From a virus: a stretch of 41,611 nucleotides of DNA. Location of the stretch: IMG/VR virus record IMGVR_UViG_3300006790_002240, positions 1 to 41,611 of that record; one strand, written 5' to 3'. Below the pieces are notes generated by a model. That model saw only the letters and a list, made by a program, of their open reading frames with translations. It was not told the origin of the DNA and ran no database searches. Both the position numbers and the translations under genes were made by a program. Shown here piece after piece: positions 15,701 through 36,895 of this stretch (position 1 is its first letter; every line of letters starts with the position of its first letter).

Positions 15701-18700
15701 CTACACCTAGATTATCATTTGCATTATTTTCTTTACTGCCTATGTTGGATAATATAGCACCCAAGTCAATATCTGCACAAGTATTTAAAAATTCAGTCAT
15801 AACAGATTTAAAAAGTGAAGTAATCGTATCAACAAGGGCCGCAGCTGCAGATTCAACTACAACATCAATCTCTAACAATGGATCATCATTATCCATTGGC
15901 AACTCTGCCATTTCAAAAGTTGGTGGGGCTACCGAAATCTTAAATACATCATCAACTTCTGCTTCCAAAGTCTTATCAAATGTTGAAGCTTTTAATTTTG
16001 CTCCTAAATCAAAACCAAGCACTTGCGCATCAAGCTCAGCAGAAATTTCTGTGCCCGACATCTCGTCTAGTAATTCTAATACACAATCTTCAATGCCCAT
16101 TTCTTTTAAGATGCCCATCAATCTATTTGTTAATTCTTTATCTAGGGCATCTTTTTTGTCTTTTGCAGCGGAAGAATCAGATACTAAATTTTTCACTGCA
16201 TTTGTAGGTTGTTCTTCAAACTCTGTTGTTAGGTTGTCTATTTCACTAAAATCTTCTACAATCAATTCCTGTTCTTGTACAAAAGATCCTAAATCTTCGC
16301 TATTTACATTAATCCCAGTTTCTAATCCTGCTAGCTCAATTTCAGAATATATTACTTTATTTTCATAGAAATCATACTCCGATTCCAATAATTCTATTCT
16401 AGAAGCCAATTCAGGGCTTATATTTTCTACTTGACATTTTACAGCTAAATCTGCTTGGAATTTACTATTGAAGAGTAGTTTTTTAAGATCAACATATCCC
16501 AAAGACTTAAGAGTTTGTTTTCTAGCTAATAAATTAATTTCTGCTTGTGGAATAAATTTCATAACGCATGATTGAGCCGCAAAAACAAATTCTTCAAAAT
16601 TAACTTTGTTTAAGACAGTATCATACATCATCTCTGAATTTGATATTCTTTGCAGTGCCTCAAAATCGTCTAGAACCGAATCGTTATTTGGTATTTGAAC
16701 ACTTCTTCTTTCCTCATATTTTTTTTCTTTCAATACAGGATCGATAAGCTTTTCGTTTTCTTTTTGAACCTCTGCTTTTGTTTTATAAGTCTTGGCTTCC
16801 GTTGACAAAAGATCTTCTTCTTTAGGCGTCTTAGGTTGTGTTGGGAATTGTTTTTTCTTTGATGCATCAGAAGCTTCATTAAGAACAATTTCAGGAGGAG
16901 GATAAGTAAACTTTACTACCATATCTAAGCCATGGTATTTCTTTTTATTTATCGCATCTTTTATCTCCGGGTAGTAGCGTAGATATGCGTTAATATTTGG
17001 CTTAGAAAATGGCTCTTCTTTGCCAAAACAATTAATACCTTTTCTTAGATATTTTGATATTATCTGGCCATCTTCTTTTCTCTGCAATATGGCAGTTTTT
17101 AATCTATATTCTTGATCAAATCCAATTGCTAATACATCTCGTTTTTTTAGATCTAGTTTTTCATCGTTTAACTTTAATAGATCCTGTAATTTTGGCAAAA
17201 CTTGATCAAATATTTTTACATCTTCATCGAAATTAGGTTCCGGAACTAATGCATATCCGTCTTTTGCAGCTCGGGTGGCGCGTCGCTTAAAATCCTTGCC
17301 AATAATCTTCTTTAGTCTCTTTATTGTTGTTTTTAATCTATTTGTCTTTATAATCCACCAGAAACCTACATCTTGAACCGCAAGACCTTCTGTTTTTTCA
17401 GTAAGTTTTTCTAATCTTGGGACGGCTGCTCTAAATTCATTAATTTCGAGAGATGGATGTTCAAAATATGTACGCGGAATAGCTACAAGATATTTTATTA
17501 ATTTATCTTGTCTATCAGATGACCATCTTTCTTTAATGGTTGCAAATAGACCATTGTTCAATTTGAGCAACTTTCCTACAAACGATACTGGCTGCTGATT
17601 AGAAGTGATCGCGGTCTCAGGAGGCAAAGTTATATTTGACTTTTTGCCATAATATGATAAAAGCTGTGCCGCGCCTTTAAAAATTATATCATAATCAGAT
17701 GCGCTGCTATCAGTTTTGTATTCTAGCGCAATATTATAGGTGTTCTCTTTTTCATCTAGATATGGTTCGTATTCATCTAGATTTGTCCAATCTGGAGCGA
17801 TATAGCTTTCATTTGGCTCTGGTACTTCAATTTTAGGTAATTCCAAATCAAAAGAAAAATCTGTGTCCGGCTGTATTGTTACGTAAGACCTCATCTCATT
17901 AATGTAAGATGAATATCTCTTCAAAACTCTAGAATCAACAAATCCAACTAGGCCAATATTATTAACAAAATCTTTTGAGTTCGGAGCATCTAAAATTCTT
18001 ACTTTAGAAAAAATTGCATTTTTTCCAAAACCCTCCGCCAATACTTCAACTTTGGTATGATGTGATAATTGAGCCAATACTCTGGAGGCTGCTCCTTTAA
18101 ACTCTGTTTGATCAAGATTAAAAGTCTTTTCTTCTACTTGCTGAAAATTTTCAACTTGTTTTTGTATAAAGATGGTATCGTATCCATCTTTTAGTTTTGA
18201 ATTCGTAACCGAAGACTTTACATACCCTTCTCTTAAGAGCAGTTTTTGATTTTGATTTTTGTTCGGATCCGAAGAAATATCAACAAAGTGAGTGCCTATT
18301 ATTGTACCATCTGGAGGATCTTCATAACCAGGGTTTAAAAGTAATGCAGTTCCAGATGGAATTACGTTTTCAACAGTTGATGTTGTGACTGTTGTATAGG
18401 GTTCTTTTGAGAGAGCCTCAATTATATTAATTCTAGTTTGCCCTATTTCAAACACGTGTGGATATTTTGAAATAAATGCAACATAATCTGCCTCGTTGAC
18501 TACCCTCTTGTCATTATTGATAGAAATTTCAATTTTTCTATTTTTAAACTCTGGGTTCTCTTCTTCGCCCTCGGGTGTTTCTATTGTTGCCGGCAATAAA
18601 GTTCCTTCAGATACTCCCTTAAAAGAATTGCCAAGCACGCTTTCTAGTACATTTTCAACATTGAAAGGGGGTCCAAATTCAACAATTTGTCTAACTAAAT

Positions 18701-18995
18701 AATAGATTGTTAAAAAGCCATTATTTTTGATACTACTTGGAGCATTGGGATCTTCAATTAAATTTTTACCATTAAAATCATATAACGTTTCTTCTAATGT
18801 TTTATCTTCAAAATCGCCGGTAATATAGGCATTTTCATATTGAGTTAAATTGACACCTTCGAGCTGTGTTGGTAATACAGTAAGCCGCTCAAGATCCGCA
18901 GTTCTTCCTAATGCTTCAAGTCTCTCAAGATAGTTTGCTGCTTTTGGGGCATCAACTAATTTTAAATCATCTAATGTTATTAATTTTTCTGGCAT
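9780..18995 (-). CDS. Giant virion-associated protein (3071 aa), function unknown
   Basis: A single uninterrupted 9.2-kb frame encodes 3071 aa, acidic overall and without a signal peptide. I do not recognise a family over its length. What can be seen: two N-terminal beta-rich stretches (around residues 200-370) with an SH3-like look; a Lys/Glu-rich helical part around residues 640-780; a helical, partly hydrophobic stretch around 1040-1100; a calcium-loop-like LDTDGDGVDD near residue 1890; and a strongly hydrophobic helical stretch around residues 2015-2070. The C-terminus is Gln/Pro-rich. Position between a spike gene and gp25 makes a baseplate hub or tail-associated role likely. A tape-measure role is possible by length, but the long beta-rich portions argue against a simple coiled ruler. 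The ATG at 18995 has no clear ribosome-binding site and follows the spike gene stop by 8 nt. Confidence 0.8.
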   Translation of the reverse strand: MPEKLITLDDLKLVDAPKAANYLERLEALGRTADLERLTVLPTQLEGVNLTQYENAYITGDFEDKTLEETLYDFNGKNLIEDPNAPSSIKNNGFLTIYYLVRQIVEFGPPFNVENVLESVLGNSFKGVSEGTLLPATIETPEGEEENPEFKNRKIEISINNDKRVVNEADYVAFISKYPHVFEIGQTRINIIEALSKEPYTTVTTSTVENVIPSGTALLLNPGYEDPPDGTIIGTHFVDISSDPNKNQNQKLLLREGYVKSSVTNSKLKDGYDTIFIQKQVENFQQVEEKTFNLDQTEFKGAASRVLAQLSHHTKVEVLAEGFGKNAIFSKVRILDAPNSKDFVNNIGLVGFVDSRVLKRYSSYINEMRSYVTIQPDTDFSFDLELPKIEVPEPNESYIAPDWTNLDEYEPYLDEKENTYNIALEYKTDSSASDYDIIFKGAAQLLSYYGKKSNITLPPETAITSNQQPVSFVGKLLKLNNGLFATIKERWSSDRQDKLIKYLVAIPRTYFEHPSLEINEFRAAVPRLEKLTEKTEGLAVQDVGFWWIIKTNRLKTTIKRLKKIIGKDFKRRATRAAKDGYALVPEPNFDEDVKIFDQVLPKLQDLLKLNDEKLDLKKRDVLAIGFDQEYRLKTAILQRKEDGQIISKYLRKGINCFGKEEPFSKPNINAYLRYYPEIKDAINKKKYHGLDMVVKFTYPPPEIVLNEASDASKKKQFPTQPKTPKEEDLLSTEAKTYKTKAEVQKENEKLIDPVLKEKKYEERRSVQIPNNDSVLDDFEALQRISNSEMMYDTVLNKVNFEEFVFAAQSCVMKFIPQAEINLLARKQTLKSLGYVDLKKLLFNSKFQADLAVKCQVENISPELASRIELLESEYDFYENKVIYSEIELAGLETGINVNSEDLGSFVQEQELIVEDFSEIDNLTTEFEEQPTNAVKNLVSDSSAAKDKKDALDKELTNRLMGILKEMGIEDCVLELLDEMSGTEISAELDAQVLGFDLGAKLKASTFDKTLEAEVDDVFKISVAPPTFEMAELPMDNDDPLLEIDVVVESAAAALVDTITSLFKSVMTEFLNTCADIDLGAILSNIGSKENNANDNLGVDSTFAEDLTDEQRFATRSVLMPPTVLDGLQTNKPGTLDIYRLLRDPRTDIDIISHILETMNEIPTTILTSEALELMDELSLALRPSEVCAMLLGTAKSPIYKLVLKIVRTSELENIKIVLSNTDKIKAFFKGLGMFIDLSFCIELSKNLSNVANYCENKLQDEWYCQQLEKKGFSKEECEQIISGNTERDKRRLEALNDLLNDELLSEVTPILCAVGNTGNESILNTPHMEQMADSVIGQMVDGVAVKFDMEVRGAKELFVDVEHIPGGGDLPRQPQLGRDYLTTNGLGAGSYSRALLPPHLDRKSTSELEEIIDNQTKQPDGAPEGFVPEEALEPYLFPADGPTAVKLAFEGKKPYLVDFGKQSRKSWPRNDINKRVVNKKLQTSLKIDNSNILSRSPINIIPNMLNGYKPETEFLLSSNEPAKRHFTMIDNHKLIEANYSTYLPVDIQAKVYTSKYREDAVQFLKEQYINFGEDSAGLLPQEAWDETIDGFSIDEDQIPSFLDVIDNYIENIKDNLPYSPPDYIGSIGGTGFAAEEQDFDQILSEGADLFGGLNDDEKSSLSQELQLYLQKQYGPDWSKLYYYSLNLFPSPKGALEKDIFYTNDVVMLPYIEAAAQLTVNELKENTPETSKLVEINYPKYIQLKANDFIQQVAPKSSEELKSIYSNIPLDQIHFRLYNHNSNFTPTSPPANSADNIPFEVQLVNVDLNFRLGLNTEWLEYIEDFSRAAETKNVKNESGLNIDDIDTAKRLSLQQYLLSKVLSTSLQDLSFSDKNLQTNILLSTFGLDTDGDGVDDLVVPMPEDVQVISPLTGRREKFEKSCLKIYDLVFASAVDRMLKNIADSEIFNIDIFDKLNLSNNTTSQQFLAKICFPQDGALAAATLSDILNSNSLKQSANEAYKDQLCKTNLDSPNDPNVLSKSIKVTSILAFMRVVILENIIRGLLIFASFELSELLKNNIIFAHILAKSIEKSANEFVGDYYTKIVNVCFDILVKELTKGKIVSIDGKKLMFKSYKKSEMADEYNNISSGIYNVKFILKTKAARKYLSDVEQSAVLYVILKQIDEILGPLSEALETPIKEKISVKNAFLATEEYMDVPYQLTDYSHFLGNSLDTFLPWRWLKIPADQEALGKIYLAQAKLGNIPEINLDNWLANLTTKELDIPTLGPVSATNVKSNDMMIRKILQKNNSTFYQTQWSDSEEYTGKAEESETIQITYLPGSTKFKKKEDEDGDLLDSGDLKYDIRTNLTSLGDATKNGGFVIQKYLKLIPHKMQFQKALNFKACFNFGFDGGAIYNRPPWELQADTPSVGSETGWKGSIEALQDDIPPDGGPIQDPDDLDESKSNAFTSEYEGDLYWAFKSSPESIDIIDNTLNYENIHKKDYVNLMIEEEGFIVNINALDIAILNSLVGQNFDLDDESENDFFSNRFTKPTPDGWTDSVDYLSELELLGNLQHSKLGDYFRDIKIGQRLVYVFPHNMDIIDDGPYGDITAEQLEVIEKSISGGSAVSPKNEKFKLKNKKFIKQDFVDRSYILDTTDETKDIADDSGTLNGSFAGMLGDSLIQIGNDELTQKCFSERKYRTAELVFETATDEQKKTLAGNSIGNPEKSKYTLEKEANIKRIYSIPIGKPVELTLAGTKDLKIRDILDWYVDKQDNTGQIENLFFGNDKRSFIAHKIYIANGPNSNLSADEYMTNKLLGDSEKKVSNLVQNYIFPDKVLKTMALMHVINFPKPEMAENTIFKASKQASVNLINVSEEPQNKSFIESELTEQGGAPAKFKEELDKLSASKSDNPIVSYFQKLTPRFIMRYLVSLTDPAWAKAFEIQKQTGASELELFTKIMFSVKPVPLFPIAPFGITPPTIQGLQNLGVLPEELEEAQEEYNEFIRLFWPFGDIRYPITGLGMTYLATGYVEPFSTYNQINNPDIVVGDNIPIDQMGSYSCEPGTEGFKAGQSPDPQSPQQDWINKDVFDQAEQE

Positions 18996-24195: not shown

Positions 24196-24448
24196 AAATT
24201 ACACTCTTGGCTTCTTTTTTGTTGGTTCTTAAGATTTCTCTATTTTCTTCTATAGCTTGTCTTGTGATTTCTCCAACTTTATGATCAACGACTTTCGGAT
24301 CTTCACTTTTTATAAAAACTTTATTAATTTGTTTTTTTAAGCAATTTGCTTGTTTGCATTCAGGACAGTCAAGCAAATTTTCTTTTATACCATGGTATGC
24401 TCGAAAGACGTGATCACATTTTTCACACGAATAATAGTATTTAGGCAT
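24185..24448 (-). CDS. FmdB-type zinc-ribbon protein
   Basis: This 87-aa protein begins with YYYSCEKCDHVF and continues with CPECK, giving paired CxxC sites (C8/C11 and C28/C31), the layout of the FmdB/putative regulatory zinc-ribbon family. In bacteria these are small proteins of unclear function, once linked to regulation of formamidase. The C-terminal half is helical and charged. Its ATG overlaps the stop of the preceding small gene by 8 nt. Whether it acts in transcription, for example with the adjacent late sigma factor, is only a guess from position. Confidence 0.78.
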   Translation of the reverse strand: MPKYYYSCEKCDHVFRAYHGIKENLLDCPECKQANCLKKQINKVFIKSEDPKVVDHKVGEITRQAIEENREILRTNKKEAKSVIYEN

Positions 24449-24641
24449 CAGTATCAGTCAAAGTTTCATAATCATCGTGATTCATTTTAACAACAGGAGG
24501 ATTCATAACAAACAATTCTTGATTTTCATTTGCTTTAAAATTGAATCCTTTTAGCACTGGTACAATATCACTCTGCTCCATTAAAGACTTTTGTAGCGCC
24601 ATCATAACTGCGCCAAGGGCTTCATCTGAAAGTTTAAACAT
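24441..24641 (-). CDS. Small acidic protein of unknown function
   Basis: This 66-aa protein has an N-terminal helix (about residues 3-28), a short beta-like middle and an acidic tail ending in Asp-rich residues. A good ribosome site (AGGAG) lies 7 nt before the ATG, which supports expression. I recognise no family. It opens the small-gene run that leads to the FmdB-like protein and the sigma factor. Confidence 0.72.
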   Translation of the reverse strand: MFKLSDEALGAVMMALQKSLMEQSDIVPVLKGFNFKANENQELFVMNPPVVKMNHDDYETLTDTDA

Positions 24642-24653
24642 TATTAATCTCCT

Positions 24654-24755
24654 TTAAAATATATTTTTTAATAATTCTGCACATTCCTGCGCAGTACTGT
24701 TTACTGTATCTGTTACACAATTATTTTTTGTTTCTAAAATTATCATTTGCTTCAT
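24654..24755 (-). CDS. Possible 33-aa small protein overlapping the dehydrogenase end
   Basis: A 33-codon frame starts at an ATG inside the 3' end of the nucleotide-sugar dehydrogenase gene (plus-one frame) and ends just before the AGGAG of the next gene. It fills the otherwise empty 79-nt gap. The translation has two Cys and a helix-like C-terminal half ending in CAELLKNIF. No clear ribosome site precedes it, so it may be either translationally coupled or a chance frame. It could also be a remnant of a longer dehydrogenase tail, but no similarity to that tail is visible. Confidence 0.3.
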   Translation of the reverse strand: MKQMIILETKNNCVTDTVNSTAQECAELLKNIF

Positions 24756-25515
24756 TTACTGCATTCAAAACTACAGATTTTACATCTGCTTTTTCAGCAA
24801 TTTTTATCATCGCATTGACATCTTTAGGAAAACACTTTCCTCCATAGCCACGATTATTAGCAAAAACAGCGGTGTGCATACGATTAACGCGAGGGTCATT
24901 AAGCCACAACTCCCTAACCCTGTTCCAATCAGTCCCCAGGGCTTTACATATATCATACATTTCATTGCAAAAAGTTACCTTAGTGGCATAAAAAGTATTA
25001 GCTACATATTTTACCATCTCCGCTGTATTGTGGTCTGTGACCAAATATCTTTTAGTTGGGCCACCTACTTTCATATAAAGATCTAATACTTGAGAACAAT
25101 CAGAGCCATTGCCGCCAAAAATATAATGCGGCATCTCTTTAACATCAGTATCAAACTTATATGGACTCCAATATTTTGATTCGCCGGCGAACTCTGGTGA
25201 GAAAACTATTTTTTTATTATACTTCATCGCCAATGCTTTGGTAGTGCCAACTGCGACAGTAGATTTAATAATTATCAAATCTGTCTCTAATTTTGAAACG
25301 GCATTCTCTACTAAAGAAATATCACAAGATCCGTCAGGCAACATCTCAGTTGGAAGACAAACCACTGCACAATCTGCTTTTTCATTTATTTCTTCTATGG
25401 AATGAGTACAAACTTCCGGATTTAGATCATACGTCATCATATTATAATGATTCTCGAAAAACCCAAACATAGCGTTTCCTACATATCCACGCCCGATGAT
25501 TGCAATTGTTTTCAT
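24721..25515 (-). CDS. Nucleotide-sugar 6-dehydrogenase, short form (Ugd/WbpA type)
   Basis: This 264-aa protein has the NAD-binding start GRGYVGNAM, a KSTVAVGTT segment, FSPEF with Glu108, AEMVKYVANTFYATKVTF with Lys169 and Asn173, and the catalytic cysteine motif GYGGKCFPKD (Cys228). This family oxidises UDP-glucose, UDP-GlcNAc or GDP-mannose to the uronic acid in two NAD-dependent steps. Usual length is 390-440 aa. Here the protein stops about 36 residues after the catalytic Cys, so the C-terminal UDP-binding domain is missing. It directly precedes no other sugar gene in the transcript but follows wbpB, so UDP-GlcNAc is the most sensible substrate (WbpA step). Whether the short form is active alone is unknown. 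An AAGGA site precedes the ATG. Confidence 0.85.
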   Translation of the reverse strand: MKTIAIIGRGYVGNAMFGFFENHYNMMTYDLNPEVCTHSIEEINEKADCAVVCLPTEMLPDGSCDISLVENAVSKLETDLIIIKSTVAVGTTKALAMKYNKKIVFSPEFAGESKYWSPYKFDTDVKEMPHYIFGGNGSDCSQVLDLYMKVGGPTKRYLVTDHNTAEMVKYVANTFYATKVTFCNEMYDICKALGTDWNRVRELWLNDPRVNRMHTAVFANNRGYGGKCFPKDVNAMIKIAEKADVKSVVLNAVNEANDNFRNKK

Positions 25516-25526
25516 ATTCTATCCTT

Positions 25527-26459
25527 TTACAGTTTTTTTAAAATTGGATGCGAGTCTTTTACTACTCCAGTTGGAATATTATACTTCATATTATGAACTA
25601 ATTTAATAGATGTTTTTACATCATCAATATTAAATCCATTTCCTTTTAAAATCTCTTCATAACTTTTTGTATGCAACTCGGTAAATCCAGTACTAAATTC
25701 AAATTCTTTCTCATCGATGCTTAGAGACCGATAAGTTGTTTTTCCTTGCTTTTTTACTTCGATAGGAAGATACTTTGAGTTGCAACTCAAAAGCCATCTA
25801 ACATTGGCATTCTCTAAACGAAGTATCCCAGACCATATATCATTTTTAGCAACGTGTACTTCATTTTTAATTACATCGCCAAAGATCCATGTAAGCATAT
25901 CAAAAAAGTGTATACCTATATTGGTTGGTAATCCGCCGGATTTATTTTTGTCTCCTTTCCAAGAATAATGATACCACAAGCCTCTTGAAGTAAGATAAGT
26001 TAAATCAACATCATATACTTTGCTCTTGTCAACTGTCTGTTTCAGCTCTCTAATTGAATCGTGAAGTCGCAATTGCAAAATATTATTAATCTTCTTGCCA
26101 CTTTCATCCTCTAGTAATTGTAAGTAATCTAGATTTTCAGGATTTAAAACCATTGGTTTTTCACAAATTACATTTACTTCATTTCTTAAAGCTAAGCGAA
26201 CATGTGCATCGTGTAAATAATTCGGAGAACATATACTAATATAATCTAATGCTTTTCCTTTTCTTCTTAGCTTATCTACATGTCTATCAAACCTCTCAAT
26301 CTCCGTAAAGAAAGACGCTTTAGGAAAATATGAGTCGATTATACCTACTGAATCATTAGGATCTAAGGCAGCTTCTAATGTGTTGCCAGTCTCTTTTATT
26401 GCTTTCATATGACGTGGAGCAATATAACCTGCTGCTCCTATTAAACCAAATTTTTTCAT
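25527..26459 (-). CDS. wbpB: UDP-N-acetyl-glucosaminuronate 3-dehydrogenase (WbpB/WlbA type)
   Basis: This 310-aa Gfo/Idh/MocA-family oxidoreductase matches the WlbA/WbpB subgroup in length and motifs. It opens with FGLIGAAGYIAPRHMKAI, a start very characteristic of WlbA, then ICSPNYLHDAHV, the ICEKP motif with Lys101, and GGLPTNIGIHFFDML with Asn180 and His184 in the catalytic positions. WbpB oxidises C3 of UDP-GlcNAc-uronic acid to a 3-keto sugar with tightly bound NAD, which is recycled with 2-oxoglutarate. The WbpE-type aminotransferase that uses this product lies 2 nt upstream, and a dehydrogenase that could make its substrate lies downstream. A GAGGT ribosome site precedes the ATG. Confidence 0.9.
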   Translation of the reverse strand: MKKFGLIGAAGYIAPRHMKAIKETGNTLEAALDPNDSVGIIDSYFPKASFFTEIERFDRHVDKLRRKGKALDYISICSPNYLHDAHVRLALRNEVNVICEKPMVLNPENLDYLQLLEDESGKKINNILQLRLHDSIRELKQTVDKSKVYDVDLTYLTSRGLWYHYSWKGDKNKSGGLPTNIGIHFFDMLTWIFGDVIKNEVHVAKNDIWSGILRLENANVRWLLSCNSKYLPIEVKKQGKTTYRSLSIDEKEFEFSTGFTELHTKSYEEILKGNGFNIDDVKTSIKLVHNMKYNIPTGVVKDSHPILKKL

Positions 26460-26461
26460 TA

Positions 26462-27547
26462 TTACCTCGTAAAGAAATTTATTACTGTTTCAACAATTAT
26501 ATCACGTTCTTCTTCTGAAAGTCCAGGATAAATTGGTAAAGAAAGCACTTCATTGCATCTTTTTTCTGCTTCAGGTAAAGATATATCGCAATCAAAAACT
26601 TTCTGTTTGTGTAAAGCTTTCGGATAATATATGGCATTTCCGATCTGGTGCGTATCGAGCCATTTTTTTAATTCATCTCTTTTGTCTGTCCTTAATGTGT
26701 ACTGATTCCAAGAATGGCCGTGAACAGCGTGAGGTAATTTTAATGCCTCTAAATCTTTAAAATGTTTAGTGTAATACATTGCATTATCTCTTCTTTTGTC
26801 TATCCAAGCATCCAGCTCAGGAAGCAAAACCGACAATATTGCTGCTTGTAACGTATCTAATCTAAAATTGCCGCCCAATATTTCGTGTTCGTATTTTTGC
26901 TTTGAACCGTGACTTCTGACCATTTTGACTTTTTCTGCCAGATTATCCCGCGAAGTAGCAACAGCTCCTCCGTCGCCAAAACAACCTAAGTTTTTAGCAG
27001 GAAAGAAACTAAACGTTGAAATATCGCCGTATGTGCCAACTTTTTTATTTTTCCACTCACTTCCTAAAGACTGTGCGCAATCTTCAATTAGATATATACC
27101 TTCTTGATTGCAATACTCTTGTAAGTCGGATAAATTATTTGGCTCTCCAAATAAATGTACAGCTAATATACCCCTAGTTTTTGCCGTTTTAGCGGCTTTA
27201 TAATCCTCAATGGAGGGATGGAATGAATCAGCACTTAAATCAACGAAAATAGGCCTTAAACCAGCGCGTATGATTGATGTAGCCGAAGCTGCGAAAGTGA
27301 ATGATGTGACTAGGATTTCATCACCTCTTTCTAAACCAAGGGATAAAAATGAAGCTAATAGTGCATCAGTGCCACTTGAAACTCCGATTACATTTGAGAT
27401 ATTTAAATAATTTGATAATTCATCTTCAAATTTTTTTACATCTGGTCCGTTGATAAATTTAGCTTCTCGCAGGCATCGATCAAATGCACTTTTTAATTCA
27501 TCCACTGATTTATTTAAAATTCGATTTAGATCAAATAAGGGTATCAT
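26462..27547 (-). CDS. wbpE: UDP-3-keto-sugar aminotransferase (WbpE/WlbC type, PLP)
   Basis: This 361-aa DegT/DnrJ/EryC1-family aminotransferase is full length. Visible motifs are GVSSGTDALLASF (phosphate-binding), TSFTFAASATSI, EDCAQSLGS and STFSFFPAKNLGCFGDGGA, with Lys185 as the PLP Schiff-base lysine. The family includes several sugar aminotransferases. Assignment as WbpE, which transfers an amino group from glutamate to C3 of UDP-3-keto-GlcNAc-uronic acid, relies on its being between WbpB- and WbpI-type genes. It overlaps the epimerase gene by 4 nt (ATGA). Confidence 0.88.
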   Translation of the reverse strand: MIPLFDLNRILNKSVDELKSAFDRCLREAKFINGPDVKKFEDELSNYLNISNVIGVSSGTDALLASFLSLGLERGDEILVTSFTFAASATSIIRAGLRPIFVDLSADSFHPSIEDYKAAKTAKTRGILAVHLFGEPNNLSDLQEYCNQEGIYLIEDCAQSLGSEWKNKKVGTYGDISTFSFFPAKNLGCFGDGGAVATSRDNLAEKVKMVRSHGSKQKYEHEILGGNFRLDTLQAAILSVLLPELDAWIDKRRDNAMYYTKHFKDLEALKLPHAVHGHSWNQYTLRTDKRDELKKWLDTHQIGNAIYYPKALHKQKVFDCDISLPEAEKRCNEVLSLPIYPGLSEEERDIIVETVINFFTR

Positions 27548-28545
27548 ACATAAATCTTTGTTTTTATAGATTTATATATTACACTAGAAGGATCTAAATG
27601 TAAATCTAAATAGAATCTTTTTTTTCGTTTTGGCGCGGGGGATAAAAGCCATTTTATATCTTCATCTTCTAGGCTTGATCTTTTAACAAAGCCTTCCTGC
27701 TCTGTTTCTATCCATTCTATTTTATTTCTCAATATTAAAGCTTTTTTTCCAAAAAACGGAGTAGTTTTTTGTATACCACCAGAATCAGTTATAAAAAATT
27801 TAGAATTAGATAAGTTTTCTACCATTTTGGTATAGACGCAAGAATCATAAATTTCAATATTTTCCGGAATACATATTTTTTTTAAAAACGGCTTTGTTCT
27901 ATGATGTACAAAAAATTTTATTTTATATGGAATTCTTGAACAAAAATTCATTACACTTTTTAAACGTTCAATATCGATATTTGATTGTCTATGGAGTGTC
28001 ATAATGCCAAAATTACCAGACGTTATCTCCGGATCCAAGCTGTTAAGAAGCTCATATTCTAGATCTCCACAATATATTCCATCTTTTAAATTTTTTAATG
28101 CGCCCGTAGAAGAACAAAATTTTAAATCAGCCACAGTATCTGCGAATATTCTATTAACTTCTTCCGGAACCTTATGATCGCCACATCTTAGTCCTGCTTC
28201 TATATGAACCACTGGTATTTTTAATTTGTAAGATACTAACGAAGCGCATAAAGAAGAATTTGTATCTCCATAAGTTAAAACAACATCTGGTCTTTCTTTG
28301 TTTAGGATATCTTGCAATTTTAAGAGTGAGGTCGCCATAAAAGATATTTCATTTTCTTTGTCAGCATCAATAGAATAGTCTATTTTTAAATTTAAATCCT
28401 CTATTAGATTTTTTGAAACGTTATCAGAATAATGCTGTAAAGTATCTACGATCTTGTGATTGACACTCATCTGTAAACAAAAATCATAAAATGGTTTAAC
28501 CTTGATATATTGAGGCCGGGTACCTATAATAGATATTATTTTCAT
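27544..28545 (-). CDS. wbpI: UDP-GlcNAc(3NAc)A 2-epimerase (WbpI/WecB family)
   Basis: This 333-aa protein belongs to the non-hydrolysing UDP-GlcNAc 2-epimerase family. The start GTRPQYIK carries Gln12 where WecB has Glu, a variant I associate with WbpI/WlbD-type members. Other motifs are TYGDTNSS (Asp94), HIEAGLR (Glu116), VPEEVNRIFAD (Glu128/Glu129), MTLHRQSN (His185) and DSGGIQK. After the last comes LRNKIEWIET, similar to the EW variant of WbpI rather than the TERPE of WecB. WbpI inverts C2 of the di-N-acetylated uronic acid, giving UDP-ManNAc(3NAc)A. It is somewhat shorter than usual (about 350-380 aa). The assignment to WbpI over WecB is by motif and neighbours. Confidence 0.85.
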   Translation of the reverse strand: MKIISIIGTRPQYIKVKPFYDFCLQMSVNHKIVDTLQHYSDNVSKNLIEDLNLKIDYSIDADKENEISFMATSLLKLQDILNKERPDVVLTYGDTNSSLCASLVSYKLKIPVVHIEAGLRCGDHKVPEEVNRIFADTVADLKFCSSTGALKNLKDGIYCGDLEYELLNSLDPEITSGNFGIMTLHRQSNIDIERLKSVMNFCSRIPYKIKFFVHHRTKPFLKKICIPENIEIYDSCVYTKMVENLSNSKFFITDSGGIQKTTPFFGKKALILRNKIEWIETEQEGFVKRSSLEDEDIKWLLSPAPKRKKRFYLDLHLDPSSVIYKSIKTKIYV

Positions 28546-28625
28546 TTTGTTTCAACATCTCCTCGAAATTCAACGGTGCACGTTTGTCTTCCATTCGAAA
28601 AAATAGAATTTTGATCGATCTTCAT
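28542..28625 (-). CDS. Possible 27-aa leader-like small ORF
   Basis: A 27-codon frame fills most of the 108-nt gap between a glycosyltransferase gene and the epimerase gene. Its TGA overlaps the epimerase ATG (ATGA), the layout of translational coupling used elsewhere in this operon. The ATG at 28625 has no clear ribosome site. The peptide has no recognised motif. It could couple translation of the epimerase, be the tail of a decayed gene, or be chance. Confidence 0.3.
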   Translation of the reverse strand: MKIDQNSIFSNGRQTCTVEFRGDVETK

Positions 28626-28653
28626 ATATTATTTTATTGTCAATATAGTAGAG

Positions 28654-29472
28654 TTACGGTATTAACTTATTTTTTCTTGCAGCAGAATAACAATCATATA
28701 ACATAGATAATATATCAGAAGGAATATATTTCTCTAATTGTTCTCCCTTGGGAAGCGCTACAAAAGGAGGTTTAATTCCGCATATTAGCCGACTTCGATC
28801 GCGAGAAATGTTATTTAAGCCGTCTGTGTCAAATCCTAGCCTCCAATTATCAGAATGATTCCATTCAACTTTTAAAGAGGAACCTTTTTGACTAGTCAAA
28901 TTTTTAAACAAAAAACTATCTACGCTGCGTCTGACATGTTGTGGAGAAAGCCTTTTGATTAAATTAGTTTTTATAGCCATGTTCAGGGAACATGGATGAA
29001 GACTATGGTCGGGTATGTGGGAAATCCGACATAAATTATGATCAAATATTGCACTTTTTTTATTTGTAATATCATAAAAGAAGCCATTTTTAGATTGAAC
29101 CCAGTCAATATTTTTATCTTTCTTAAAGATATCATTTGTTTCTTTTAAACGATATGGTTGTGCATAACAATCAGCTGCCTGTAACAAAAAACATTTTGAA
29201 GAGTCACTGGACATATTAGCTAGCTGCTTCCATTTAAGTGATAATGGTATCCATTGTTTTAAAGAAATATATTCCAATCTCGTGCAGCCATTTTCTTTTA
29301 ATCTTGAAACATACTCTTTTACTTTTTCTTGACCGAAACATTCTTCTTCTTCTTCGATTATCAATAACTCCCATTTAAAATCAATATCTTTTTGTCGACA
29401 TAAGCTTTCTAAGGCTAGCCATGCTATTTCTCTACTTCTGTACATTGGAAGACCAACTGTTAATTCTATCAT
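28654..29472 (-). CDS. Putative GT-A (family 2-like) glycosyltransferase
   Basis: This 272-aa protein starts with ELTVGLPMYRSREIAWLALES, the typical first strand and helix of family 2 glycosyltransferases, followed by WELLIIEEEEE where the nucleotide-binding acidic residues usually lie. The expected metal-binding DxD is replaced by LLQAADCYAQP near residue 100, so the metal site is reduced or altered. The C-terminal half is less typical. It sits between the epimerase gene (108-nt gap) and the acetyltransferase gene (4-nt overlap), so it may use the pathway product. No membrane segments, so it would act in the cytoplasm. Confidence 0.75.
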   Translation of the reverse strand: MIELTVGLPMYRSREIAWLALESLCRQKDIDFKWELLIIEEEEECFGQEKVKEYVSRLKENGCTRLEYISLKQWIPLSLKWKQLANMSSDSSKCFLLQAADCYAQPYRLKETNDIFKKDKNIDWVQSKNGFFYDITNKKSAIFDHNLCRISHIPDHSLHPCSLNMAIKTNLIKRLSPQHVRRSVDSFLFKNLTSQKGSSLKVEWNHSDNWRLGFDTDGLNNISRDRSRLICGIKPPFVALPKGEQLEKYIPSDILSMLYDCYSAARKNKLIP

Positions 29473-29867
29473 TTTTTTATGTTCCTCGCTGGGTTGCCAG
29501 CCATTATGCTATTAGATTCTACATTTTTTGTAACTACGCTGCCGGCGCCTATCTTAGAGCTTTGACCAATAATTAAATTTGGCAGAATTGTTGCATTGGC
29601 GCCAATAGATACATTAGATTCAACAATTGTTGGGGGCTCTTCTTTCCACTTGCCTTTTGATGGTGCATATTTATCGTTTGTAAAAACTGTTCCAGGACCA
29701 ATAAAGACGTTATCTTGGACTATTACATTTTCCGGAATAAAAACACCAAAGCCTATGGAACAATTTTTGCCAATTATTACTTTATGTCCAATTTCTGCAA
29801 AAGCACCTACTTTAGTACCTTCGCCTATTTGGGCAGAATCATATATATTCGCAGTCGAATGAATCAT
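29469..29867 (-). CDS. wbpD: UDP-sugar 3-N-acetyltransferase, hexapeptide-repeat (WbpD/WlbB type)
   Basis: This 132-aa protein is built of left-handed beta-helix hexapeptide repeats (IGEGTKVGAFAEIG, IGKNCSIGFG, IGANATILPNLIIG, IGAGSVVTK), ending in AGNPARNIKK. The motif VFTNDKYAPSKGKW at residues 61-74 is the insert typical of WbpD/WlbB, where the Asn (Asn64 here) is in the active site. The enzyme acetylates the 3-amino group using acetyl-CoA. The family is usually about 190 aa; the phage form is shorter, mainly at the C-terminal end, but keeps the active-site loop. It overlaps neighbours by 4 nt on both sides. Confidence 0.86.
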   Translation of the reverse strand: MIHSTANIYDSAQIGEGTKVGAFAEIGHKVIIGKNCSIGFGVFIPENVIVQDNVFIGPGTVFTNDKYAPSKGKWKEEPPTIVESNVSIGANATILPNLIIGQSSKIGAGSVVTKNVESNSIMAGNPARNIKK

Positions 29868-30520
29868 TTTCTATTATCCTGTCTATCCCCAAGATGATAA
29901 GCTCGTGCTAAAGGATTGAAACTAATAGGAAAACCACACTGTCTTATGGATAAGCTCCATACGACATCGGGAGCGCTCCCATATATGCCAAATGGTTCCA
30001 CCATCTTTAAAACATCTTGATGAACAACGCAATTAGCTACATACGCAGTCAAAGAATCTTCAATTTCACCAGTAGTAGTATCATAATTTAATCCCCTATG
30101 GGTAGCACCAGTTTTTCTACTAGGAAACTGCATCCAGTCTTCGCCAAATTCATGACGCTTTCCCTCTGCATCTGTTAATCGAAAGCCGTACTGGCCGGGC
30201 TGTTTATCTTTTAGATATTTAGACATATTAGTATACCAGTCATCATCGGGCAATATGTCATCAGCCAAAAAAGCTATCCATTCTTCTTTTCTTGTCTGCA
30301 AGCCTTGGCGCCATTTTCTTGACATATCTTTTTCCCAAGCAGTATAGTTTGAGAATACGCCGCCCAAATCTTCAACTAAATTTTTTAATTCTTCATTGTT
30401 AGGCGCAACTAAAGTATAATTTCCATTACAGATCTCTATGCACTTAGGAATAATTTTGCTTAGCAATAATTTCCTTCGTATAGGATTTTGATTTGTAATC
30501 TGTACTATTCCTAGATTCAT
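29864..30520 (-). CDS. Small GT-A glycosyltransferase-like protein
   Basis: This 218-aa protein has a GT-A-like outline: an N-terminal strand-helix unit, EEWIAFLADDILPDDDWY with an acidic DDxxPDDDW motif (Asp87/Asp88) that fits the metal/nucleotide site, and a C-terminal part ending in a histidine-containing RAYHLGD. The last pattern is common in family 2 enzymes where a late His helps bind metal. A Trp-rich centre may form the acceptor site. It shares a 4-nt overlap with the acetyltransferase gene. Donor and acceptor are unknown. Confidence 0.7.
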   Translation of the reverse strand: MNLGIVQITNQNPIRRKLLLSKIIPKCIEICNGNYTLVAPNNEELKNLVEDLGGVFSNYTAWEKDMSRKWRQGLQTRKEEWIAFLADDILPDDDWYTNMSKYLKDKQPGQYGFRLTDAEGKRHEFGEDWMQFPSRKTGATHRGLNYDTTTGEIEDSLTAYVANCVVHQDVLKMVEPFGIYGSAPDVVWSLSIRQCGFPISFNPLARAYHLGDRQDNRK

Positions 30521-30524
30521 AACT

Positions 30525-31805
30525 TTAAATTAGACTCTCGACTGCAGCCATCTGCATCGCATCTTTATAGATATCTACTTCTTCTGGCAGTGCTTTTCGA
30601 ATTGATTCAACTAATGAAACATTTTGCTTTTTCTCGTTGAACTCTTCCGTGACCCAATCTTGTAGTTGTCTAGCTTGTTTCTTGAATCTACCGTGATCTT
30701 TAAAAACTTCTCTAATTTGTTTCTTGAATGATCCTTCTTCGGCATATGCCCACTTAGAGTCTGCTTCCAATACTCCTTGCCAAACAGCTTGCTTTTGTAT
30801 ATTCTGTAGTGTGTAATTAACACACGCAAACATAGGCTTAATTCTTTCTTTGCCCTTTTTATTTTTTACGGGCATACAAAGAAAATCTAAGTAACCACTC
30901 CACTCCGGAGCAATAATAGGCAATCCTTCATACGCTGCCTCAAACATTGGCAAGCCATAACCTTCACCATGAGAGGTTGACAATAAAGCTTTTATTTTTG
31001 GATTACGATAAAGTTCGTGCATCTCTTGGTCAGAAAAGTCACCATGGAGAAGATAAATTTTACATTTTTTATCTTTATAATTCTTTTCTTGCAATATATA
31101 TTTAATTTTATTTTCTACTGCTGTTCGATCTAAGAAAGAATTTTTTGATAAATTAGTTTTAAGAATTAAACCAACATTTTCTTCATCATAGAATTCCTCA
31201 ATAAACCATCGAATACAGTTTTCTATATTTTTTCTTGGGCCCCATTGCGCAACATTTAAGAAATTGAAATCTGTCTTTAAATCTAGCTCTAGATCACAAC
31301 TATCATATTGTTTTACAGGATATCCCACGACATCAATAGGAGTTTCACATATATATTTAATCATCTCTCCTGTATTCGTTATTTGCGCGTCAACTACTGT
31401 TTTTTGATAAACTTCTTTTGAATGCTGAGATGGTACAACAATTCTATCCATCAAGTTACCTTTCTCTAGCCAGCCAGGAGCAACTTTAGTTGTTTCAATG
31501 CCGGCCGTAACTCCAATATTTACTGGGCATAACTTTTCCCATTCATTAGGAATTGAAACTTGTACACTTACATCGAATGTCTGCTTGTTCTGCAAGGCTG
31601 CTTGCGTTTTTTCTATCACACTATCAAGCCAGATACGTTCTTCATCTTTTTCTTCTGCGAGGGCCCAGCCAGTAGTTCCCCAAGATGTAGGAATAAGATA
31701 GAGATCTAAATCTTGTTCTTCTCTAAGAGATCTCATAATAAACCTTACGTGCTCGCCATACCCACTTCTAGTTAAAGCAGGTCCTCTAACAATTACTTTT
31801 CTCAT
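30525..31805 (-). CDS. GT4-like (GT-B) glycosyltransferase
   Basis: This 426-aa protein opens with a Rossmann-type start RGPALTRSGYGEHVRFIMR and has the GT4 C-terminal signature STSHGEGYGLPMFEAAYEGL, with the E-x7-E pair that binds the nucleotide-sugar, followed by PIIAPEWSGYLDFL. A GAGGTGG ribosome site lies upstream of the ATG. It lies next to a second GT4 protein, so the two may add successive sugars. Soluble, cytoplasmic. Members of this type are common in large marine T4-like phages; the acceptor is not known. Confidence 0.83.
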   Translation of the reverse strand: MRKVIVRGPALTRSGYGEHVRFIMRSLREEQDLDLYLIPTSWGTTGWALAEEKDEERIWLDSVIEKTQAALQNKQTFDVSVQVSIPNEWEKLCPVNIGVTAGIETTKVAPGWLEKGNLMDRIVVPSQHSKEVYQKTVVDAQITNTGEMIKYICETPIDVVGYPVKQYDSCDLELDLKTDFNFLNVAQWGPRKNIENCIRWFIEEFYDEENVGLILKTNLSKNSFLDRTAVENKIKYILQEKNYKDKKCKIYLLHGDFSDQEMHELYRNPKIKALLSTSHGEGYGLPMFEAAYEGLPIIAPEWSGYLDFLCMPVKNKKGKERIKPMFACVNYTLQNIQKQAVWQGVLEADSKWAYAEEGSFKKQIREVFKDHGRFKKQARQLQDWVTEEFNEKKQNVSLVESIRKALPEEVDIYKDAMQMAAVESLI

Positions 31806-33074
31806 TTATACCACCTCTTTTAAGGACCAACTTTGATATCCTTTTCTGTTGCTATATGAGCCATATTTTTCATAAGCTTTATCCATAATATCGACCCAAC
31901 CTTTTTCATAATCTTCAAAATTATAATTTTTATTAACGTGTTCTAAGCCTAGGCGACCAAGTTCTTGGCGCTCTTCGGGAGACATTTCATAGATCTTTAG
32001 CAAAGCCTCAACAACTTGCTTGTTATCGAGTCTATCCTCATAAATATAAGGTACATCTTGGGAACCAATTATTGCTTTAGATGATGGTGTAAGGCCAATT
32101 CCAAAAAAGTTTTCACCATCAGTTACTTGTTCTTGCAAGCCACCGGTCATATTAGCAATAATAGGAGTTCCACAAGCTAATGATTCTAAAGTAGCCAGAC
32201 CAAAACCCTCGGCATCAGAAATATTAATAGTACAATCTGCAGCGTTATATAGTTTTGCTAGTATTTGTGGTTCAACTGCTGTTGTCGAAAACATAACTGT
32301 GCCATCCATAAGGCCTAGCTCTGTAATAATAGCATTCAAATCCTGACCGTGAGGATCTCTTGGGTTTGTATGCATAATGAGACCCACATTTTCTTTTCCA
32401 ACTTTTTCAGCAAATTCTGCGAACCAAAATAATAAAGATCCGCTTTGTTTTCTTCTAGCATTTCTATTATTCCAGAAAAATAAGAATTTATCTTTCATTG
32501 AAGGTAAGAGTTTAGCTATGTATTCTTTACATTCTGCTTTATCTTGTGGTTTAAAGATATCTTGATTAACAGCATGCGGAAGATAACAAGAATCAACCTC
32601 AGGGGCTACCGTTTTGACAATATCGTGAGTTACTTTTGATATTGCAACAATCTGATCACAAGATTTATACCAAACTTTATTAAACTTTGGATAAGGATAG
32701 TTATCCCAAACGTGATAATAAATCATTGGGGCTACTGCTCGAATTTCATTTTCAATTTCCCACAGCCAACCAAAAAATCTAGGATCTGTCATAAACCAGA
32801 CAATATCAGGCTTGAATGTTGCCAGCATACCACGAACCATATCGTGATTTCCATATCCATCAACAGGGTAAATAATCATATCATCTCCCCATTGATCTGT
32901 CTTCATTGGCCTGTAATCTTGATGTTTAATCGCTCCACCAAAACAAGCAAACTTATATCTTCCTGTTTTAAGACAGGCTTCGATCATATATTTAGTTTGT
33001 GTGCCAACTCCAGATGGTGACAATGGATGATCGCTCAAAACTAAAACTTTAATTTTCTCTACAGAAGCTTCCAT
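31806..33074 (-). CDS. GT4 (GT-B) glycosyltransferase
   Basis: This protein of 422 aa has the typical N-terminus VLVLSDHPLSPSGVGTQTKYM (a Gly-rich loop) and the C-terminal signature INISDAEGFGLATLESLACG, then TPIIANMTGGLQEQV. I place the start at ATG 33074, which has an AAGG about 8 nt upstream. The longer frame from 33095 would use TTG and overlap the nuclease gene by 13 nt, so it is less likely. It heads the sugar operon in the direction of transcription, directly after the nuclease gene. Confidence 0.87.
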   Translation of the reverse strand: MEASVEKIKVLVLSDHPLSPSGVGTQTKYMIEACLKTGRYKFACFGGAIKHQDYRPMKTDQWGDDMIIYPVDGYGNHDMVRGMLATFKPDIVWFMTDPRFFGWLWEIENEIRAVAPMIYYHVWDNYPYPKFNKVWYKSCDQIVAISKVTHDIVKTVAPEVDSCYLPHAVNQDIFKPQDKAECKEYIAKLLPSMKDKFLFFWNNRNARRKQSGSLLFWFAEFAEKVGKENVGLIMHTNPRDPHGQDLNAIITELGLMDGTVMFSTTAVEPQILAKLYNAADCTINISDAEGFGLATLESLACGTPIIANMTGGLQEQVTDGENFFGIGLTPSSKAIIGSQDVPYIYEDRLDNKQVVEALLKIYEMSPEERQELGRLGLEHVNKNYNFEDYEKGWVDIMDKAYEKYGSYSNRKGYQSWSLKEVV

Positions 33075-33082
33075 ATTACGCC

Positions 33083-33859
33083 TTATTTTATACAATGTTT
33101 GGTACCATCATATGGACAGTACGTGCAAGACAATTTATTTTTAATAAAATTTTGTCTTTCAACATTATATAACATCTTTTTAATTAATTTAAGAGCGTTG
33201 TCGATTTTTTTTGGGCCGGCCTTTACTTCAAATATTTCAACTTGATTATTTTTAGCAGTTCTTTTCAATAAAGCGAAATGAGTCTTTATCTTTGAAGGAT
33301 CAATATTATGCTTCTTGGCATAAAAGTGCTTATATAAAGTTAATTGATATGACAGCATTCGATCGGTTTTCTTTTTTGAATTCCATCCCCAAGAACAGGA
33401 TTTCCAGTCAATTATATGGTAATACTCATCTTTTTTTAGTACAAGGTCAATAAAGCCTTTAAAATTATAATCTACTCCATCGATCGGCACCATTAGTTCT
33501 TCTTCGGTAGCACAAACTTCATATTTTTCAAAATATTCTTCTAAACCCGGAAGAAGCTGTGGGGCCAATTGGAGGCCTTGGGCGCGCATATCATTAACTA
33601 ATTTTGCATCGAAGGTGACTGCTTTATCTTCTTCCTTTAAAATCTTAAGTTCATTCAAGAAATTATTTTCAAATAAACTTTGTGCGTCCTGCTTATCATC
33701 AAAAACTAATATCTCTCCAACCGTATGGATTGCTTTTCCAAAGGCAGTATATTCATTGCCTTTAAAGACTTTAATCTTGTCAATGTAATCTAGTTTGTGC
33801 TTCCAGGTGCACTCATCCCAAGTTTTTACCTCGGAAAACGAAACGTGTGTTTTTTTCAT
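33083..33859 (-). CDS. PD-(D/E)XK nuclease, Cas4/RecB-like
   Basis: This 258-aa protein shows the PD-(D/E)XK core: His46 in AFGKAIHTVGE, Asp138 in FKGFIDLVL and IIDWKS with Asp151 and Lys153, the classical metal-binding set. The four cysteines Cys17, Cys245, Cys248 and Cys256 are arranged like the iron-sulphur cluster cysteines of Cas4/AddB nucleases (one N-terminal, three C-terminal as CxxC and a distal Cys). Such enzymes act as single-strand exonucleases in recombination or repair; phages often encode them. No CRISPR genes or arrays are present, so a CRISPR role is not suggested. It lies 4 nt from the next upstream gene. Confidence 0.87.
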   Translation of the reverse strand: MKKTHVSFSEVKTWDECTWKHKLDYIDKIKVFKGNEYTAFGKAIHTVGEILVFDDKQDAQSLFENNFLNELKILKEEDKAVTFDAKLVNDMRAQGLQLAPQLLPGLEEYFEKYEVCATEEELMVPIDGVDYNFKGFIDLVLKKDEYYHIIDWKSCSWGWNSKKKTDRMLSYQLTLYKHFYAKKHNIDPSKIKTHFALLKRTAKNNQVEIFEVKAGPKKIDNALKLIKKMLYNVERQNFIKNKLSCTYCPYDGTKHCIK

Positions 33860-36160: not shown

Positions 36161-36895
36161 ATGAAATACTTAAAAATTCTTATACTATTATTTTTTCTTG
36201 CAAACATAACTAGTTGCGCAACCTCAAATATTCAAACAATGGATCCAGTGGAAAAGCTCTTGGAGACAACCAAGAGGTCTTTTGTGAAAATTGAAGTTTC
36301 CGTATGGAGTCTAACTTGCGTTGATAAAGGAAAGGAAAAGGAGTGCACCAAAGAAAAGATAGGCGGAGCTTGGGGCTCGGGATCAGTTATTAAGTATAAA
36401 GGCAAAAAACACATCCTAACTGTTGCTCACATATGTGAAAGCGAAAGAATGAACGCAGTAGCACACATAACCCAGCAGAAACTACTATATGATTTCGCTG
36501 CTACAGTTGAAGCCAATAGTTGGAATTCATATGGTGCCATACCAATAAAAATTGACCATCAAAATGATATCTGCATCATGTCTGTTGAGGAGATCGATGC
36601 GCCTTACCTTAAGATGTCCAATAAAAAGCCAGTATATGGCGAAAAAACATACACTGTGGCCTCTCCGGGAGGGTTGGCTAGGGATGGTATGGTACCGACG
36701 TTTGAAGGACGTTTTCTAGGCATCACAGACAATAGAGCATATTACAGTGTGCCGGCAATGGGAGGATCCTCCGGATCCCCTCTAGTGAATAGAAAAGGTG
36801 AAATAATAGGCGTTACTCACTCTGTTTATGCTTACTTTCATCATGTTACAGTATCTTCAACGTTTGAAGAACTATGGAACTTCGTCAGCAATTAG
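36161..36895 (+). CDS. Secreted lipoprotein trypsin-like serine protease
   Basis: This is the only plus-strand gene seen. The 244-aa product starts with a lipoprotein signal peptide (hydrophobic core, lipobox ITSC, Cys19), so the mature protein should be anchored in a membrane, facing the periplasm or outside. The chymotrypsin-like triad is visible: His90 in ILTVAHICE, Asp136 in HQNDICIM and Ser204 in GGSSGSPLV. This is the S1 fold of DegP or trypsin-like type without a PDZ domain. No ribosome-binding site lies before the ATG. It converges on the next minus-strand gene and overlaps its 3' end by 24 nt. A phage-encoded surface protease could alter the host envelope or act on exported proteins. 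A small unrelated moron is the simplest explanation. Confidence 0.86.
   Translation: MKYLKILILLFFLANITSCATSNIQTMDPVEKLLETTKRSFVKIEVSVWSLTCVDKGKEKECTKEKIGGAWGSGSVIKYKGKKHILTVAHICESERMNAVAHITQQKLLYDFAATVEANSWNSYGAIPIKIDHQNDICIMSVEEIDAPYLKMSNKKPVYGEKTYTVASPGGLARDGMVPTFEGRFLGITDNRAYYSVPAMGGSSGSPLVNRKGEIIGVTHSVYAYFHHVTVSSTFEELWNFVSN

Follow-up and report, generated by a model that had tools for sequence, protein, structure and literature searches.

The island and its site

The viral contig IMGVR_UViG_3300006790_002240 of the IMG/VR database, analysed here over its full length of 41,611 bp (the window), comes from a large tailed, T4-like phage, as seen from its genes for the gp25 and gp6 baseplate wedge proteins, a gp55-like late sigma factor and PhoH; at positions 24721-29867 it carries six open reading frames (264, 310, 361, 333, 272 and 132 amino acids), most of which resemble enzymes of the bacterial Wbp/Wlb pathway and which, judged by their content and borders, form an exchangeable sugar island. 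A preliminary description of the sequence had proposed an operon with homologues of all five pathway enzymes; the open frames and their common orientation on the minus strand were confirmed, with Pfam matches to UDPG_MGDP_dh, GFO_IDH_MocA, DegT_DnrJ_EryC1, Epimerase_2 (2e-56) and Hexapep. The region recurs at 99.8-100% protein identity in a twin of the window, the 60,865-bp contig L002 (related viral contigs are given L numbers), and the same gene order is found at 36-76% identity in L005; since L005 keeps each of these genes as an open frame, the gene set is beyond chance.

The borders of the island are set by relatives in which its site is empty. In L164/L165, L166 and L169 the gene order is PhoH, p219, a PD-(D/E)XK nuclease, two GT4-type glycosyltransferases, p218, a gap of about 60 bp, p66, small genes and the sigma factor; in L164 the p218/p66 boundary lies at 10651/10711, and in the window exactly 24721-29867 stands at this point. 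The p218-p66 site also holds the wbp set in L005 and L108, with conserved gene order, and a dehydrogenase gene without wbp genes in L187, L189, L199, L214, L216, L218, L225 and others. The island of L004 (2236-6251) is a longer set that includes an AsnB-type amidotransferase, a formyltransferase, a methyltransferase, a GDSL hydrolase and three GT2-like proteins, a content that suggests a uronamide or N-formyl sugar; in Porphyromonas, the AsnB-type family amidotransferase WbpS converts the Wbp uronic acid to its uronamide (PMC7468200).

Upstream of the island, the PD-(D/E)XK-GT4-GT4-p218 module is conserved: p218 is retained at 65-66% in the empty-site relatives L164-L166 and L169, GT4-type glycosyltransferase 2 occupies a conserved slot in L164-L169 and in the Flavobacterium phage immuto, which shares the nuclease and the GT4 pair, glycosyltransferase 1 has homologues in Flavobacterium and Microcystis phages, and the nuclease adjoins the glycosyltransferases in many relatives. 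The site being empty or differently filled beside a module that is kept, constant module and variable cargo are therefore separable (Table 1). The base composition of the island is not foreign (33.3% GC versus 35.1% elsewhere), Rfam gave no matches, a scan for promoters and terminators stayed at chance level, and none of the anti-phage-defence models matched the glycosyltransferases.

Table 1. Genes of the island, its borders and the adjoining module in the window, with predicted functions.
Feature	Coordinates	Strand	Evidence
p66, small conserved protein; right border of the island	24441..24641	-	60 bp after p218 in empty-site relatives
Short two-domain nucleotide-sugar dehydrogenase, phage family, not WbpA	24721..25515	-	PF00984 3e-26, PF03721, no PF03720
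WbpB/WlbA-type UDP-GlcNAcA 3-dehydrogenase	25527..26459	-	PDB 3oa2, E=1.9e-98
WbpE-like DegT-family 3-aminotransferase	26462..27547	-	PF01041 6e-103, tree, K185
WbpI-type non-hydrolysing UDP-sugar 2-epimerase	27544..28545	-	Best PDB match 8sxv, residue signature
272-aa probable GT-A-like glycosyltransferase of the island	28654..29472	-	N-terminus GT2-like by eye
Short hexapeptide N-acetyltransferase (WbpD role)	29469..29867	-	Hexapep, FTND motif
p218, probable GT-A glycosyltransferase; left border of the island, part of the constant module	29864..30520	-	Weak PF00535 (0.005)
GT4-type glycosyltransferase 2, constant module	30525..31805	-	PF20706, PHROG 2170 glycosyltransferase
GT4-type glycosyltransferase 1, constant module	31806..33095	-	PF00534 8e-13, PHROG 2170 3e-27
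PD-(D/E)XK (Cas4/RecB-like) nuclease adjoining the glycosyltransferase module	33083..33859	-	PHROG 69 exonuclease

Enzymes of the island

The key residues named in the preliminary description are all present: K101 and H184 in WbpB, K185 in the aminotransferase, N64 within FTND in the N-acetyltransferase, GTRPQ and EWIET in the epimerase and C228 in the short dehydrogenase. The 310-aa protein is, by sequence, a clear WbpB orthologue; it is 56% identical to the Pseudomonas aeruginosa WbpB structure 3oa2 and matches Thermus thermophilus WlbA (3o9z) at 4e-95, the next Gfo/Idh/MocA protein following only at 1e-8, and its catalytic Lys/His pair is invariant across eight viral copies. A tree that includes about 80 bacterial relatives unites the four nearest viral WbpB proteins in a single clade and places other viral copies on different branches; viruses have therefore acquired this gene more than once. 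The nearest bacterial WbpB proteins are those of Bacteroidota and Campylobacterota, and the best isolate relative infects Flavobacterium; the Bacteroidota-type WbpB and the relatives among Flavobacterium phages are hints, no more, to the host.

The 2-epimerase, shorter than its bacterial Wbp/Wlb counterpart, finds its best match among solved structures in the UDP-GlcNAc3NAcA 2-epimerase of T. thermophilus (8sxv). Epimerases acting on this substrate differ from those acting on UDP-GlcNAc by Trp307 in place of Arg, Tyr96 in place of His/Gln and Ala18 in place of Leu/Met (PMC10622841). The phage enzyme keeps Trp307 and Tyr96, as well as Gln14, Arg242 and equivalents of the catalytic Asp98, Glu120, Glu132 and His208; the UDP-GlcNAc residue pattern is found in Escherichia coli WecB and in the Yong-DA phage enzyme. 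The Tyr/Trp signature thus supports an assignment to the WbpI type. In pairwise comparison with the aminotransferase, QdtB and DesV outscore WbpE; in the tree the phage enzyme joins the WbpE clade, as its sister and not nested within it, at 97/91 support and apart from QdtB/DesV, which supports a WbpE-type assignment.

Two further proteins are less clearly placed. The hexapeptide N-acetyltransferase is about 60 residues shorter than bacterial WbpD (ca. 190 aa), and its nearest structures in the PDB are WxcM (4mzu), 7s43, QdtC and WlbB (3mqg). The 272-aa protein, encoded between the epimerase and the N-acetyltransferase, is none of the five pathway enzymes and has no matches in Pfam, NCBIfam or PHROG; it has a homologue in L005 (54%), and the likeness of its N-terminus (VGLPMYRS...LLIIEEEEE) to GT2 enzymes, as judged by eye, makes it a probable GT-A-like glycosyltransferase. 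AlphaFold models of this protein and of p218 were too poor for use (mean predicted local distance difference test scores, pLDDT, of 37 and 41).

Predicted product, first step and acceptor

WbpB, the WbpE-like aminotransferase, the short N-acetyltransferase and the WbpI-type epimerase would together convert UDP-N-acetylglucosaminuronic acid (UDP-GlcNAcA) to UDP-2,3-diacetamido-2,3-dideoxy-mannuronic acid or a compound very close to it, a product that we infer from orthology and specificity residues. The UDP-GlcNAcA could be supplied by a host WbpA, in which case the phage would rely on its host for the first step, or by the phage's own short dehydrogenase. The sugar would then be transferred by soluble phage glycosyltransferases, the 272-aa protein and the constant GT4-GT4-p218 module, onto an intracellular acceptor, more likely a protein of the virion (tail or capsid) than phage DNA. 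No protein of the cassette has a hydrophobic segment (best 19-residue mean <1.4), and island and module encode no membrane protein, flippase, polymerase or undecaprenyl-phosphate (lipid-linked initiating) transferase; an intracellular acceptor is therefore favoured over host lipopolysaccharide (LPS). A variable outer decoration would be expected to show just this pattern, in which related phages have a different sugar set in place of the island or none at all. As a whole, the reading of the locus as a constant glycosylation locus with an exchangeable sugar-donor island, whose Wbp-type product is placed on an intracellular acceptor, is given a probability of about 0.5.

Several observations weigh against this reading. 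The Ala18 position of the epimerase is Val in the phage enzyme and Ile in L004 and L005, and the ribose-binding Glu290, present in all other epimerases compared, is Thr in the phage clade. The N-acetyltransferase scores 102 bits against the WbpD profile and is closer to WxcM and QdtC in the PDB; by sequence it would be a short, general sugar N-acetyltransferase that fits the WbpD step and is not a clear WbpD. A WbpA-type dehydrogenase was found near WbpB in none of 59 distinct viral loci. The acceptor, finally, is deduced solely from genes that are missing, and the 41-61 kb seen belong to a genome of probably >130 kb, elsewhere in which genes for membrane-bound assembly or DNA modification may lie.

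The short dehydrogenase is where the preliminary description failed. It had been called WbpA-type, a reading ruled out by its position outside the WbpA/WecC clade and by profile scores of 25 bits for WbpA, 110 for UGD and 406 for the short phage dehydrogenase family (a profile that includes the query itself). The protein is about 150 residues short and lacks the C-terminal domain of the three-domain family (PF03721, PF00984, PF03720), and PF03720 is not encoded anywhere in the eight viral records searched (the window and seven related records). Of the five proposed homologues, support was obtained for WbpB, for the WbpI-type epimerase, for the grouping of the aminotransferase with WbpE and for an N-acetyltransferase that fits its step, but not for a WbpA-type dehydrogenase. 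E108, K169, N173, C228, K231 and D232 are invariant in 10 viral homologues of the dehydrogenase, the catalytic Cys lying in GGxCxPKD. If the preferred reading holds, it would also suggest that a phage dehydrogenase may work although the domain by which the nucleotide-sugar site is normally completed is missing. The family is not specific to wbp islands, a possibility excluded by the finding that just one of its 80 best viral loci lies near WbpB and the other 79 have no WbpB within 8 kb.

It is quite conceivable, if held tentatively, that the five genes do not act in a single pathway, and that the dehydrogenase makes UDP-glucuronic acid for another glycan while the four other enzymes take UDP-GlcNAcA from the host; this alternative touches the first step only and overlaps with the preferred reading. 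The UGD-like nature of the enzyme speaks for it, as does its grouping with copies from loci without WbpB instead of those of its wbp-bearing siblings; relatives with a dehydrogenase and no wbp genes use the same slot, and elsewhere the short dehydrogenase often lies beside epimerases of the short-chain dehydrogenase/reductase (SDR) type and is missing beside WbpB in L004. Against it, a short dehydrogenase occurs within 6 kb of WbpB in 14 of the 59 viral loci, in several separate lineages, and lies between the wbp genes in L123, L124 and L126. Such dehydrogenases have therefore reached the WbpB neighbourhood several times; this repeated recruitment is compatible with a replacement of WbpA and with an unrelated role alike. 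A self-sufficient variant of the preferred reading – in which the minimal two-domain dehydrogenase, taken up independently on several occasions, stands in for WbpA, and the sugar coats the phage's own virions through a constant module whose island is exchanged between related phages like an O-antigen cluster – is doubtful.

Among the acceptors named in the preliminary description (host LPS, the virion or another), host LPS is the least supported by gene content. A remodelling of the host surface – LPS, capsule or a Wbp-type anchor glycan of Bacteroidota, for example to block superinfection – would accord with the bacterial pathway, which serves O-antigen and A-LPS, in Bacteroidota included (PMC10622841, PMC4031482, PMC7468200), and with the Bacteroidota/Campylobacterota affinity of WbpB and the Flavobacterium host of the best isolate relative; it appears unlikely, given the missing membrane and lipid-linked functions and the many hosts that already carry the pathway. 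Other T4-like phages glycosylate their DNA, with glucose or arabinose, and the sugar of the island could likewise sit on hypermodified DNA of the phage; the similarity of the soluble glycosyltransferases to GT4-conflict and the nuclease gene next to the module would agree with this. However, no gene of the thymidylate synthase/hydroxymethylase type is present in the window or in the parts seen of its four nearest relatives, all of them fragments, and a bulky, charged uronic acid would be unusual in DNA, which renders this acceptor rather improbable. That the genes have no function and are carried along as passengers or as filler, as was once raised for the LPS clusters of P-SSM2-type cyanophages (PMC3037559), is very improbable in view of open frames, invariant catalytic residues and low ratios of nonsynonymous to synonymous substitution (dN/dS) across diverged phages (ca. 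0.1-0.25 for the epimerase, N-acetyltransferase and glycosyltransferase genes against L005, with dS near saturation).

Occurrence in viruses and relation to known systems

The preliminary description considered a whole pathway in a phage much rarer than single sugar genes, which needs some care. IMG/VR contains about 59 distinct viral loci with WbpB, six of which, the window's twin included, have the whole set; in L123, L124 and L126, at ca. 8.9-13.1 kb on contigs of up to 231 kb, a second, independent arrangement places aminotransferase, WbpB, N-acetyltransferase, dehydrogenase and epimerase five in a row. Full-length WbpB was not found in 50,697 GenBank phage records. A 135-kb viral contig, L009, carries at 2192-8071 a bacterial-type WbpD and WbpE beside a divergent WbpB and a 358-aa dehydrogenase. 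Single wbpD, wbpE, gnnA and ugd genes have been reported from viral contigs (PMC13211439, PMC12783922, PMC12016548); these belong to the same families, but here the genes form a linked set with specificity residues in a defined island. No open-licence paper was found that describes a viral set of linked genes with the specificity residues of WbpI, the exchangeable island or the question of the short dehydrogenase; what is new against earlier reports is that the coordinates of the wbp set coincide exactly with those of the exchangeable island.

With the Wbp/Wlb pathway of P. aeruginosa (wbpA-B-E-D-I), Bordetella (wlb) and T. thermophilus, the island shares a WbpB orthologue, the WbpI-type signature, a WbpE-like aminotransferase and a C3-type N-acetyltransferase side by side; in contrast to the bacterial loci, it has no WbpA-type dehydrogenase, its N-acetyltransferase and epimerase are short, its transferases are soluble, and the Wzx/Wzy genes and initiating transferase of an O-antigen cluster are missing. 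LPS-type clusters have long been known in T4-like cyanophages (PMC3037559); those of P-SSM2, S-SM2 and S-SSM7 likewise combine sugar and glycosyltransferase genes, in P-SSM2 also near phoH, with a function that is unproven. The present island differs in that its product can be named and that relatives with an empty site set its borders; marine picocyanobacteria are also unlikely to be the hosts. A PD-(D/E)XK-GT-GT module is likewise found in Flavobacterium phage immuto (NC_055915) and, with an additional gene separating the nuclease from the transferases, in Microcystis phage Mel-JY01; the variable sugar cassette behind it (aminotransferases, epimerase or methyltransferases) includes neither WbpB nor WbpI in either phage. 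The short UDP-glucose dehydrogenases of Microbacterium and Campylobacter phages (257-259 aa) are of similar two-domain length, yet only 26-28% identical and not adjacent to wbp genes. If the preferred reading holds, this would be a phage glycosylation island with a predictable sugar, which sibling phages carry, lack or replace at the same site, and the long-standing puzzle over the role of LPS-type clusters in T4-like phages would become testable.

Three further features of the window were observed outside the locus. A giant open frame of 3071 aa (9780-18995, minus strand) lies in the baseplate region between gp25 and a 307-aa gene. A trypsin-like serine protease (36161-36895, plus strand; PF13365, 1.8e-12), divergent from PhoH in orientation, is the sole clear plus-strand gene of the right half. 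At 39683-41602 (minus strand), a 639-aa protein combines a cytidylyltransferase-like N-terminus with a long remainder that has no assignment; it has homologues of 38-41% in the empty-site relatives.

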